Shown here: positions 54,382-57,923 of the stretch, piece after piece | How positions within the stretch are numbered: position 1 is the stretch's first letter | Layout of the letters: every line of letters starts with the position of its first letter | Assembly (NCBI RefSeq): GCF_001592735.1 | Contig: NZ_LUKE01000001.1 | Span: forward strand, 1,054,001-1,118,000 | Direction of reading: 5' to 3' | Source of the DNA: Bdellovibrio bacteriovorus | Lineage (GTDB): Bacteria; Bdellovibrionota; Bdellovibrionia; Bdellovibrionales; Bdellovibrionaceae | Length of the DNA: 64,000 nucleotides | The notes under the pieces: generated by a model | What the model saw: the letters and a program-made list of their open reading frames with translations, nothing else | Databases searched by the model: none | What the model was told of the DNA's origin: nothing | Position numbers and translations under genes: made by a program

Positions 54382-54510
54382 ATGAACATTCAGAAAATCG
54401 TTCGTTCAGTAACGAAAAAGCAAATCAAGTCGACTCAAAAGAAAGCCCAAGGCCATTTTGAATTGGGTGGAGTTGGCAATACTCAAATGAACATGATCGC
54501 ATTTGATTAG
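54382..54510 (+). CDS. RiPP-like precursor peptide (42 residues)
   Basis: ATG 54382 follows a strong SD AAAGGAGTAACC; stop TAG 54508-54510. The N-terminal half is basic and polar (MNIQKIVRSVTKKQ, KSTQKKAQ). The C-terminal half is different: GHFELGGVGNTQMNMIAFD, with a possible double-Gly site at GG (residues 29-30). No Cys. It stands 55 bp before a putative peptide hydroxylase, a cupin and an ABC transporter in one direction. The leader/core split is inferred. Confidence 0.65.
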   Translation: MNIQKIVRSVTKKQIKSTQKKAQGHFELGGVGNTQMNMIAFD

Positions 54511-54520
54511 TTTTTTCTTC

Positions 54521-54546
54521 GGGGGCGCCAGCCTCCCCGGGGGCGC
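54521..54546 (+). promoter_or_regulatory. GC-rich stem region between precursor and enzyme genes
   Basis: GGGGGCGC is repeated (54521-54528, 54539-54546), and GCGCC (54525-54529) can pair with GGCGC (54542-54546). No T-run follows. It may reduce read-through or protect the short precursor mRNA, giving more precursor than enzymes (inference). Confidence 0.35.
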
Positions 54547-54565
54547 ACCCTTTAAAGGAGTTTTT

Positions 54566-55438
54566 ATGTACGGAATGTTTGGAATCGAAACAAGTATTGA
54601 AAATATCTATAAACTTGCAGCTCCGTTTGTTGGTGATACCGACATCGAAAAGATGCAAGATCTAAAGCCCTCTTACGTAAACTATTTAAAATCTGTTCAT
54701 TCTGAATTCCCGATTTTAAATGACCCCGAAATCGTGGTTCGCGATTTAACTCGTTCTAACCAATTTGCCTCTGCTTTTTCCGCAAGCATTATCGATGACC
54801 TTAATCAAGAGCGTATGGTTGGAGACAATTACTCGAAAGATCTGCTTTTGGCTAACGCGGAACTAGTTCAGCGCAGTTTAGCACAACTTAAAATCATCCG
54901 CCCAGATCTAGCTGAACTTTTTGACTTAGCTGTTCATGCCGTTGTCCTTTGTAATTCAAATCGCAACTCTGAAGGATTTAGCGCCCACGGAGGTACAACC
55001 AATCGTTGCATTGGTCTGATCTGGCTTAACCTACGTCCCGAAATTTCAGAACAAAATGTTTTAGAAATGTTGATTCATGAACTCACCCACACTCTAGTGT
55101 TTTTAGATGAACTTAATAACGAACATTTTAACTATTACAATATCACTAAACAAGAATTTTGGGCCCAATCTTCCATCTTAAAACGTCAACGCCCTATGGA
55201 TAAAGTCATTCACAGCATTATCGTTTCCATGGAGCTGTTATACACGCGAAAAGAGTTCTTACCCACTGAACCGGGGCAAAAACTTTTACATCCAAGTTCT
55301 CAAGAACTGGTGAAAAATATCTCAGCCTCTATTCAGTCTGTCTTAGAACACCCTCGCCTTCATGAGGTCTGCAAACCTCGGGCAATCGAGCTGGTTCAGT
55401 TAGCAAAAGAGCAATTAAAGATTTATGAGGCTATGTAA
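54566..55438 (+). CDS. HExxH protein resembling alpha-KG-HExxH peptide beta-hydroxylases
   Basis: 290 residues from ATG 54566 (AAAGGAG at 5 nt). The metal motif HELTH (His171, Glu172, His175) is followed by ITKQEFWAQSS and the RQRPMDKVIHS segment (His216 a possible third ligand). This layout (HExxH, then a W and an R-x-RP..k.lHs motif) is that of the family NCBI names alpha-KG-HExxH-type peptide beta-hydroxylase, which modifies RiPP precursors. No signal peptide. It sits between the precursor and the cupin gene (1 bp). Confidence 0.72.
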   Translation: MYGMFGIETSIENIYKLAAPFVGDTDIEKMQDLKPSYVNYLKSVHSEFPILNDPEIVVRDLTRSNQFASAFSASIIDDLNQERMVGDNYSKDLLLANAELVQRSLAQLKIIRPDLAELFDLAVHAVVLCNSNRNSEGFSAHGGTTNRCIGLIWLNLRPEISEQNVLEMLIHELTHTLVFLDELNNEHFNYYNITKQEFWAQSSILKRQRPMDKVIHSIIVSMELLYTRKEFLPTEPGQKLLHPSSQELVKNISASIQSVLEHPRLHEVCKPRAIELVQLAKEQLKIYEAM

Positions 55439-55439
55439 A

Positions 55440-56528
55440 ATGGAAAAGTTATATAAAGAAATCGAATCGACCATGTCCCGCATTGAAAGCAAATGGCAAA
55501 AGATCAATTATTCCACTGACCATTTTCCCGAAGTTGTTTGGAAAGAAACAAGCTCTTTAGATCTTTCTGCTTTGGGCGAAGTCTCTAACCAGCTTAAGCT
55601 TTTAGATATGCCGGGTGTTCGCTTTCAACAGCAACGCTCTACATTTTCAGATCTGTATGTCCAAATCTTTCATAATGGCCGATTCATGATCGAGATCCTA
55701 AATTGGTGGGGTGGCCACGTGAATGTGCACGACCATGATTTTTCTGCCGTTCAATTTCAGCTTAAGGGTGATGCCTTAAACGTCGTTTATGATTTCAAAG
55801 CAGAACAAGAAACCGGTGCATTGCGATTTGGAAGTCTTAACGTGCGTGAGTCTGAAATCTGGAAAGAAGGCGGACGATCTATCGTGCGTCCCGGCGACGT
55901 AGATCCCCACAGTGTTTTCCACATTGGTGAACCGACGACAAGTCTTCTGATCCGCACGATTGCAACACCACGATACGGAGCTCAATCAAACTATTTCCCA
56001 ACCCTAGCGGCTCATTACTATGTGTCTAACGATATCCAGCGCAAAAAACTAACCGCCTTGGGCCTTTTATCCAGAAAAGCTTCTAAAGAATTTCGCATGA
56101 ACTTAGAAAAGTTCTTAGACACGCAAAGCTTAAGTGAAAATTTCTTTATGCTTATAAAACTTGGCTCTTTGCTTTTACAAGAAGACTATAGCGATATTCT
56201 TCAGAACTACGCAGACAAAGGCTCTTTAGAAAAGAAGCTTGTAGACAGTGTTGTCCTAAACAACGGTATTGATTTCTTTAAGACAAAAGCAAATGAAACC
56301 TCCGACTTAAATTACGATGAAAAGCTCGCCGCCTTTGCAGTTTCTGCAAGCTGCAATCTAGGCAATTTACAAAAAGTGATTTCTCAATTAGGAAATACCG
56401 TAAATCCAGAAAGAATCAGTAGCGGCCTTAAGTCGTTTTTAACAAAACTTGATTCTGGTGACCAAGCAGTGGCGGAAGGTTATCTAGATATTTTTGGAAT
56501 GGCGGAGTTCGCAAATGAAAAGGTTTAA
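55440..56528 (+). CDS. Cupin-fold protein of the RiPP-like operon
   Basis: 362 residues. A single cupin at about 50-185: GHVNVHDHDFSAVQFQLKG (His97, His99; the usual Glu of motif 1 is absent) and RPGDVDPHSVFHI (His157). Three His would bind Fe as in cysteine-dioxygenase-like proteins. Residues 200-362 are helical and not recognised. It starts 1 bp after the HExxH gene, and its last 14 bp overlap the ABC gene, so the operon is translationally coupled. Possibly a second tailoring oxygenase or a partner of the first. Confidence 0.7.
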   Translation: MEKLYKEIESTMSRIESKWQKINYSTDHFPEVVWKETSSLDLSALGEVSNQLKLLDMPGVRFQQQRSTFSDLYVQIFHNGRFMIEILNWWGGHVNVHDHDFSAVQFQLKGDALNVVYDFKAEQETGALRFGSLNVRESEIWKEGGRSIVRPGDVDPHSVFHIGEPTTSLLIRTIATPRYGAQSNYFPTLAAHYYVSNDIQRKKLTALGLLSRKASKEFRMNLEKFLDTQSLSENFFMLIKLGSLLLQEDYSDILQNYADKGSLEKKLVDSVVLNNGIDFFKTKANETSDLNYDEKLAAFAVSASCNLGNLQKVISQLGNTVNPERISSGLKSFLTKLDSGDQAVAEGYLDIFGMAEFANEKV

Positions 56529-57891
56529 TATTTATTCATGCCTTTTAAATCGTGATGCCGTGATTTCGACAGTTTGGTCTGTTTTACAGCAACTGGTCGT
56601 TGCGGCTTCAACATATCTGATTGTTAAATCAATCCAGATGGTGACCGCAGGCGACCTGCAGCAAGGAATTCAGTATATCAGCGCTTTTGTGATCAGCTTG
56701 GTTTTGGTGTATCTGCCAAACACACTGTCCATGGCGTACTTGCAAAGATGGCGCTTAAGTTCGATCGAAAAATTTGTAAATTCATTTATCGATCACAACA
56801 AAGGAAGGACCACCTGGGGTCATGCCAGGAATAAGGTCACTAAGGAATCTTGGCTAACTAATGAAAGTTTTGCGGTATTTGATGGGGCAACGGGTTTACT
56901 TTATCAGCTTATCTCGACACTTTTGAACTCGCTTTTCAATATCATGGTCATTGCCTGGGCTTTGGATTCTCGCATTATGGGATGGTACGCCGCCGCGGGT
57001 GCCATACTGGTGGGAGTCAATTATCTCTCACGCGGATTTATCAGCAAGTCTTCTTTAGCTATGCAGGACAGCCGCAACGCCTTATCAAGTTCGATGTTGT
57101 CAGCGTGGCAGAATATTTTTATCGGAAATAGATTTAATTTTGAAAATTGGCATCAGCTTTTTTCAGAGCGCTTTCGTCAATCACGAAAGGCCGCTGCAAG
57201 TTATGATATCACTCGTTCAGTGATTTCTAGCATCACCGTATGCGTAGCCCTTTTAATTGTGGCCCTAGGAAATGGCATCTTTTTGTGGGAAAACCAGCAA
57301 AACATCCCCGCGATTGCGGCTTTATTTATCACTATGCCTCGCCAGCTTCAGATCATCCAAAGCATCTTTTCCTTTTTTAACTTAACTCTAAGTTGGAATG
57401 GTGTGCGCAATCAGTTGAAAACCCTAGAGGAAACCTTACTTTCAAATAGTGGCACAAAAGATTCCTTAAGCTATGTACAAATTCCAGAGCTTTCCTTAAC
57501 TGAAAGGAAAAACGAAATCCCACTATCTACGGCTGATTTCTTTTTCAAAAATATTCAAGACTCCGCTAAAGGTCGTCGTACTTTGCGTGGACCTAATGGA
57601 GCTGGAAAGTCGACTTTGCTTTCTGTCTTGAAAGAAAAAACAGGAGATAGCTCTTTTATGTTGCCGACAAACTATGAAGACCTTTCGTTCTCCATTGATT
57701 TCTTAGATCATTCTGATGGCAATCGCTTGCTCGCCGTATTTCAAAAGATCGAAAAACTCGATTCCGTGAAATACATCATTTTAGATGAATGGGACGCAAA
57801 CCTTGATGGAAAGAATCTTTCTTTAATCAATGATGCCATCGAGCGTTTAGCCGAAACTAAAGTCATTATCGAATCCCGACATCGCGGGTAA
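56515..57891 (+). CDS. Half-size ABC transporter with shortened ATPase domain
   Basis: 458 residues. The N-terminal ~310 residues carry about six TM helices (for example VLQQLVVAASTYLIVKS and YISAFVISLVLVYLP). The C-terminus has Walker A GPNGAGKST (Lys365), Walker B YIILDEWD (Asp424, Glu425) and an H-loop-like ESRH. Only 59 residues separate the Walker motifs, against roughly 110-120 usually, and no LSGGQ is seen (nearest is SDGNR). No C39 peptidase domain. Probably exports the modified peptide. Confidence 0.82.
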   Translation: MKRFNIYSCLLNRDAVISTVWSVLQQLVVAASTYLIVKSIQMVTAGDLQQGIQYISAFVISLVLVYLPNTLSMAYLQRWRLSSIEKFVNSFIDHNKGRTTWGHARNKVTKESWLTNESFAVFDGATGLLYQLISTLLNSLFNIMVIAWALDSRIMGWYAAAGAILVGVNYLSRGFISKSSLAMQDSRNALSSSMLSAWQNIFIGNRFNFENWHQLFSERFRQSRKAAASYDITRSVISSITVCVALLIVALGNGIFLWENQQNIPAIAALFITMPRQLQIIQSIFSFFNLTLSWNGVRNQLKTLEETLLSNSGTKDSLSYVQIPELSLTERKNEIPLSTADFFFKNIQDSAKGRRTLRGPNGAGKSTLLSVLKEKTGDSSFMLPTNYEDLSFSIDFLDHSDGNRLLAVFQKIEKLDSVKYIILDEWDANLDGKNLSLINDAIERLAETKVIIESRHRG

Positions 57892-57892
57892 T

Positions 57893-57923
57893 AAAAAAGG
57901 GAGGTTTTGCACCTCCCCTTTTT
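57893..57923 (+). terminator. Terminator of the RiPP-like operon (bidirectional)
   Basis: GGGAGG (57899-57904) pairs with CCTCCC (57912-57917), with A6 before and CTTTTT after. It lies between the ABC gene and the convergent CMD-family gene. Confidence 0.85.

Follow-up and report, generated by a model that had tools for sequence, protein, structure and literature searches.

The stretch of Bdellovibrio bacteriovorus DNA analysed here (64,000 nt; contig NZ_LUKE01000001.1 of assembly GCF_001592735.1, forward-strand positions 1,054,001 to 1,118,000; hereafter "the window", numbered from its first letter) carries at positions 54382-57891 an operon of four plus-strand genes, coding for a short peptide, an HExxH protein, a cupin, and an ATP-binding cassette (ABC) protein, in this order. 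The operon stands alone and is flanked on both sides by opposite-strand genes. An earlier interpretation, based on the letters and their open reading frames (ORFs) and referred to below as the sequence-only reading, took it for a pathway to a ribosomally synthesized and post-translationally modified peptide (RiPP). When the coordinates were rechecked, all four genes were recovered where that reading had placed them, with a gap of 1 nt between the HExxH and cupin genes, a 14-nt overlap of the cupin and ABC genes, and the strong Shine-Dalgarno sequence that had been noted before the peptide gene. The features are as follows.

54382..54510, + strand: precursor peptide gene, 42 amino acids (aa); ATG at 54382 preceded by the Shine-Dalgarno sequence AAAGGAG, stop codon 54508-54510; homologues lie upstream of other HExxH genes
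54487..54507, + strand: conserved core MNMIAFD, residues 36-42, from the comparison of tails across loci
54508..54565, + strand: intergenic hairpin region between the precursor and HExxH genes, from folding compared with shuffled sequences
54566..55438, + strand: predicted α-ketoglutarate (αKG)-HExxH-type peptide hydroxylase, 290 aa; TIGR04267, AlphaFold2 model, fold match to 8s5f
55440..56528, + strand: CUP, modelled three-His cupin of thiol-dioxygenase fold with a C-terminal helical domain, 362 aa; AlphaFold2 model and fold matches
56515..57891, + strand: putative compact half-size ABC exporter with a very short nucleotide-binding domain (NBD), 458 aa; NBD motifs
57899..57917, + strand: terminator-like hairpin and T-run, 8 nt past the last gene

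The hairpin and T-run that the sequence-only reading had called a terminator are thus present. A terminator scan gave 4 sites overall compared with 5.4 in shuffled sequences, which is no statistical excess, and the call is therefore based on position.

The peptide product, MNIQKIVRSVTKKQIKSTQKKAQGHFELGGVGNTQMNMIAFD, has a basic leader of approximately residues 1-24 followed by a C-terminal tail, and has no match in Pfam or NCBIfam. A search for the precursor and the gene order in other Bdellovibrionota, as proposed by the sequence-only reading, revealed three relatives of the same order (G103, G118, and G084, found among 148 relatives) which keep all four genes in the same arrangement, with enzymes 45-59% identical to those of the window. 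The peptides upstream of their HExxH genes have about 40 aa and leaders of a common pattern but unlike charge. They end in MNMIAFD (window and G103) or MIMIAFD (G118 and G084), while the precursors of two further relatives, which are devoid of the cupin, have the tails VVMIAFNNNK and LVMLVLE.

A scan of genome contigs with the HExxH protein of the window as single query gave no match, and an alignment query was needed. The alignment search returned 34 HExxH loci from Bdellovibrionota, other Proteobacteria, Actinomycetota, Cyanobacteria, and others, among them Streptomyces, Nocardia, Rhizobium, Xenorhabdus, Photorhabdus, Vibrio, Acinetobacter, Moraxella, cyanobacteria, Verrucomicrobia, and Nannocystis. 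In every cupin-bearing locus the tail reads M-x-M-[IVL]-A-F-D, and in most others M-[IVLA]-[AS]-[FYWH]-[DEN]. We counted ORFs located at most 400 nt upstream of the HExxH gene and ending in the latter motif plus at most 13 residues: such an ORF is present in 28 of the 34 loci (which include some near-identical pairs) as opposed to 1 among the 6145 other ORFs of this DNA. The contrast strongly supports a partnership of peptide and enzyme and marks the short ORF with its conserved core as a candidate RiPP precursor. The sequence-only reading had named a lack of conservation of the small peptide next to the enzymes as evidence against itself; the peptide is conserved directly upstream across many phyla, which bears out its central assignment of a RiPP precursor with an αKG-HExxH enzyme, an oxygenase-type cupin, and an exporter. 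Five of the six loci that miss the motif have looser tails, namely MLVLE (L025), MIAIQ (L085 and L089), MFTVK (L097), and repeats of LRMASLEE (L102).

That the C-terminal half of the peptide is the core was correct insofar as the C-terminus is nearly invariant. The conserved core is smaller than the Gly/Asn-rich half and comprises just the last five to seven residues (M-x-M-I-A-F-D), and the Asn of MNMIAFD varies across loci (N, I, or R). The small residue of the core (Ala, rarely Ser) is among its most conserved positions, and the residues past the core differ among loci in sequence and in length (0-8).

The HExxH protein carries the motif HELTH at residues 171-175 and RPMDKVIHS downstream at 209-217. 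It scores 50.4 bits with the NCBI model TIGR04267 (aKG-HExxH-type peptide beta-hydroxylase; curated cutoff 40), a cutoff that was also passed in all 11 genomes behind the related loci that were tested. Residues H171, E172, H175, R209, H216, S217, R228, and H242 are invariant in 30 HExxH sequences. The AlphaFold2 model built from the alignment of these sequences (predicted local distance difference test score, pLDDT, 94.7) matches the HExxH domain of ChlB (8s5f) with Z 21.1 and a root mean square deviation of 3.9 over 254 aa, and SjiH with Z 17.5, the next unrelated entry having Z 4.8. A sequence-profile search of the PDB with the same alignment misses 8s5f, which is reached by fold comparison alone. 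The protein also scores above the cutoff of PF17927 (inositol kinase N-domain), a match that is contradicted by the fold and by TIGR04267 and was rejected as spurious. Family and modelled fold thus support an αKG-HExxH-type peptide hydroxylase, as the sequence-only reading had proposed, with the reaction being a prediction.

Characterised αKG-HExxH enzymes hydroxylate Asp, His, Gln, and Pro in RiPP precursors (PMC12636437, PMC13060819), and their reactions "at present cannot be predicted" (PMC13060819). For the family described here, β-hydroxylation of Asp/Glu/Asn is a tentative assignment, and β-hydroxylation of another side chain appears quite improbable. The enzyme might also act mainly by cleavage, α-hydroxylating Ala40 and splitting the backbone to yield ...MNMI-NH2 and a second fragment derived from AFD plus whatever residues follow it. 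PosC and PflC, which belong to the same enzyme family, cut in this way at ARMD, a conserved motif at the C-terminus, on the N-terminal side of its Ala; the residues that follow the motif are irrelevant (PMC12636437). The strong conservation of the Ala (rarely Ser) and the variable tail of 0-8 residues behind the motif would fit such a reaction. The residues after the Ala are conserved too, which argues against it, although the flanking residues of PosC substrates are likewise conserved yet individually dispensable. Furthermore, MIAFD differs from ARMD, and MLVLE in G028 and MFTVK in L097 have Val and Thr at the Ala position, where PosC hydroxylates without cleavage when the residue is Val. We consider cleavage as the main reaction unlikely.

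The cupin has no match in Pfam or NCBIfam. Its three predicted ligands, H97, H99, and H157, are invariant in 19 sequences, and the AlphaFold2 model from their alignment has a pLDDT of 92.7. Residues 1-194, to which the fold matches pertain, resemble mercaptosuccinate dioxygenase (Z 14.9), cysteine dioxygenase (CDO) of B. subtilis (14.6), 3-mercaptopropionate dioxygenase (14.0), mammalian CDO (approximately 13), plant cysteine oxidase (PCO; 11.6), and cysteamine dioxygenase (ADO; 10.5). The three-His cupin of the sequence-only reading is thereby refined to a modelled three-His protein of the thiol-dioxygenase fold with an additional helical domain (approximately residues 198-359, about 160 aa). 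The second-sphere Ser-x-His-x-Tyr of CDO is replaced by SLLIRT in the window and TLC[VI][KR]T in homologues, as judged from the register of the sequence motifs. The catalytic residues His155 and Tyr157 of CDO thus correspond to Leu/Cys and Arg/Lys in the cupin family, and for this reason we do not file the cupin as a thiol dioxygenase. None of the precursors from cupin-bearing loci contains a cysteine, which speaks against a thiol substrate in the peptide, although the cupin might act on a small-molecule thiol.

The cupin is confined to one clade, where it is always encoded directly behind the HExxH gene. Among 28 lineages, a Met two positions before the core Met is found in 9 of 9 with the cupin and in 1 of 19 without (Fisher p 1e-6), and Cys in the precursor in none of the former and 16 of 19 of the latter (p 3e-5), with both values ignoring kinship. 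A tail of at most one residue behind the core is found in all nine cupin lineages and 3 of the 19 others. On the HExxH tree, the distribution of the cupin requires two changes, interpreted as a single gain and a single loss. The cupin-less lineage inside the cupin clade (L085/L089) has the tail FNMIAIQN, with Phe in place of the extra Met. The joint link of the cupin with M-x-M, the absence of Cys, and the short tail amounts to approximately one evolutionary event, and Moraxella has MRM without a cupin. Because independent events are few, we regard the pattern as suggestive but not as proof. Its logic is that of nitrilobacillin, whose target residue was first suggested, correctly, by co-occurrence with the enzyme (PMC13060819).

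We consider it probable that the cupin acts on the precursor, and a methionine is its possible, tentatively assigned target. It might instead leave the peptide untouched and serve in metal handling, in redox sensing, or as an accessory to the HExxH enzyme. The substitutions at the CDO catalytic positions are in line with this, as are distant full-length homologues of the cupin (L028-L037, with the motif HSH.FRGAF) which stand alone in Bdellovibrionota, with no HExxH relative found adjacent. The complete conservation of the three His, the invariable position behind the HExxH gene within the clade, and the joint occurrence and joint loss of cupin and M-x-M speak for an action on the peptide, and we consider an accessory role rather unlikely. 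To our knowledge, peptidyl-methionine oxidation has been assigned to no enzyme of the thiol-dioxygenase fold.

The last gene encodes a protein with the Walker A motif GPNGAGKS, the C-loop SDGN, the sequence ILDEWDANLD (Walker B Glu and D-loop), and a switch His. Walker A and C-loop are only 35 aa apart (31-42 aa throughout the family, for members with both motifs), so that the helical subdomain of the NBD, judged from motif spacing, is essentially missing. The family shares Walker A, an S-[DTS]-G C-loop, DEWDANL, and an end with the switch His. The protein scores 19.7 bits with Pfam ABC_tran, below the cutoff of 25. The half-size ABC transporter of the sequence-only reading is upheld by the exporter motifs and refined: its NBD is truly minimal, and the type also occurs in other RiPP-like operons. 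In sister genomes without the HExxH gene, the neighbours of related ABC proteins are either a 2OG-Fe(II) oxygenase and a peptide of 44-48 aa or a ryptide-like radical S-adenosylmethionine (SAM) maturase. Actinobacterial relatives have a major facilitator superfamily (MFS) exporter in its place. Export of the modified peptide is supported by these ABC and MFS contexts next to peptide-modifying enzymes.

Within these sister genomes of the same genus, operons at L059:648-2787, L065, L066, L067, L068, and L069 consist of a short ORF (44-73 aa, typically 47, e.g. MNKFEIFENIIAERNKSGTGVRAVLEKSSIPAEVQEIMNSRKAKKKN), a 2OG-Fe(II) oxygenase gene, and a gene for the compact ABC protein; they seem to be an unrelated type of peptide operon that exists in parallel to the one described here. 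At L063:36-2829 and L061:1372-3421, the compact ABC gene adjoins radical SAM genes; the protein from L063 resembles a ryptide maturase (230 bits, below cutoff). In Bordetella sp. (L086:6926-9190), HExxH and ABC proteins are fused in a single 754-aa ORF.

The best explanation of the whole is that the operon makes a RiPP with an oxidised tail which is exported; we consider this highly likely, and the modification of the tail by the HExxH enzyme slightly more so, with reactions, residues, export, and role being inferred. The 42-aa precursor would be bound via its basic N-terminal leader. The Fe(II)/2-oxoglutarate HExxH enzyme would oxidise the common M-φ-A-aromatic-acid part of the tail, most likely by β-hydroxylation of Asp42 or else of the neighbouring Phe41. 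The three-His iron cupin would add a second oxidation, probably involving the extra Met36 of M-x-M, since the precursors paired with it are devoid of cysteine. The compact ABC protein would export the modified peptide, and a protease encoded elsewhere would remove the leader. The most specific version, a cross-phylum RiPP family defined by the M-φ-A-aromatic-acid tail and the αKG-HExxH enzyme, in one clade of which the cupin is a peptidyl-methionine oxygenase that oxidises the first Met of M-x-M at S or C, is rather unlikely.

Several further observations weigh against the proposed pathway. No precursor could be recognised at the locus of the HExxH relative L026, the operon has no protease gene, and its transporter no recognised peptidase domain. 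The intergenic region between precursor and HExxH genes forms a hairpin significantly better than shuffled sequences in 15 of 18 homologous loci (z < -2.7), possibly an attenuator or mRNA stabiliser, while that of the window is weak (z -0.97). Instead of a secreted RiPP, the peptide might be a small regulator acting in the cytoplasm, or its hydroxylation might serve to sense oxygen or 2-oxoglutarate, given that the peptide is short and basic and comes without a protease or a known activity. An exporter (ABC or MFS) is co-transcribed in most loci, a RiPP radical SAM C-methyltransferase is added in Streptomyces, and the multi-copy core of Nannocystis suits a product rather than a sensor; we thus consider a regulator very unlikely.

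With known αKG-HExxH peptide β-hydroxylases (TIGR04267/IPR026337; ChlB, 8s5f), the enzyme shares the family cutoff, the fold over 254 aa, and the adjacent short precursor, but it is stand-alone, without radical SAM fusion or cyclophane maturase, and its substrate tail is MIAFD. The pfl/pos clusters of Pseudomonas have in common with the window an αKG-HExxH enzyme (PflC, PosC), a C-terminal conserved motif with Ala and Asp, and the absence of a protease gene; they have an NHLP leader, an MNIO-nitroreductase fusion, a GNAT protein, and poly-Gln plus ARMD (PMC12636437). The window instead combines a short basic leader with the thiol-dioxygenase-fold cupin and the compact ABC protein; with no MNIO gene, the tail MIAFD, and a 42-aa precursor without family match, its operon is not a member of that group. 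The nitrilobacillin pes cluster likewise has an αKG-HExxH enzyme (PesO) in a RiPP operon, together with an MNIO, an Asn-synthetase-like nitrile synthetase, M16 peptidases, and an R(V/T)DN core (PMC13060819), unlike the window. Biphenomycin clusters (PbsQ, BipG, BipH) employ a hydroxylase of the cupin type, which in bip/bpm shares the RiPP pathway with an αKG-HExxH enzyme (PMC12257519, PMC12707348). PbsQ and BipG are JmjC (2-oxoglutarate) cupins, in contrast to CUP. The thiol dioxygenases (CDO, 3-mercaptopropionate and mercaptosuccinate dioxygenase, ADO/PCO) share cupin fold and three His with CUP, which differs by its extra domain, the exchanged His/Tyr, and thiol-free precursors.

In the open-access literature (most subscription journals being outside), we found no relevant paper on MIAFD or its variants, on DEWDAN, or on a thiol dioxygenase associated with a RiPP. 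The RiPP-type pathway is thus known as a kind, while the M-φ-A-aromatic-acid peptide family and the pairing of HExxH enzyme and cupin are without a description found in open-access papers. An orphan operon of one genome is thereby tied to a precursor motif beside αKG-HExxH enzymes in several phyla. The motif allows automatic precursor finding, and the reaction is open to simple co-expression; with its natural variants (D/E/N, F/Y/W/H, with or without cupin), the five-residue tail is a compact system for learning αKG-HExxH rules. DEWDANLD, from ABC proteins whose NBD is drastically shortened, is a recognisable marker for RiPP-like operons. If the cupin does act on Cys-free peptides, this would be new chemistry for its fold.

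The window genome has one HExxH gene of the TIGR04267 type; phylum-wide, the enzyme occurs in 10 of 369 genomes, none of them from other members of the genus. In an empty-site comparison within the genus, the flanking genes matched scattered places, so that an insertion event is not demonstrable. Plasmid searches gave no match for the cupin and two Acinetobacter plasmids for an HExxH protein; viral contigs gave no match. In the families surrounding the Streptomyces and Xenorhabdus loci, the cupin searches revealed no additional copies, and the system is therefore patchy. G118 and G084 have a fifth operon gene (L023:9128-10159 and L024:3535-4620; about 343 aa, 41% mutual identity), which has no Pfam or NCBIfam match and is absent from the window genome.

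Tailoring genes vary among the related loci. In the Streptomyces relative, the RiPP radical SAM C-methyltransferase (TIGR03975, 635 bits, cutoff 282) and the MFS exporter belong to the same gene run. In Vibrio chagasii (L083:7711-8640), a JmjC_2 cupin, as in the biphenomycin type, lies between the HExxH and ABC genes at the place of CUP, a second oxygenase from another fold family. A methyltransferase-like gene is found right behind the HExxH gene in Photorhabdus and two cyanobacteria (L090:7786-8664, L084:7877-8755, L092:7877-8755). In Nannocystis poenicansa (NZ_CP114040.1, L102:5065-6924), a 619-aa ORF with 29 tandem LRM[AS].. repeats, mostly LRMASLEEVAKAG, is located directly upstream of two HExxH genes and, by its repeats, resembles a giant precursor with many cores of this type. 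The HExxH gene is fragmented in Candidatus Cardinium (L103:7001-7871) and in Photorhabdus tasmaniensis (L104:6632-6979), the latter of which keeps precursor and ABC genes.

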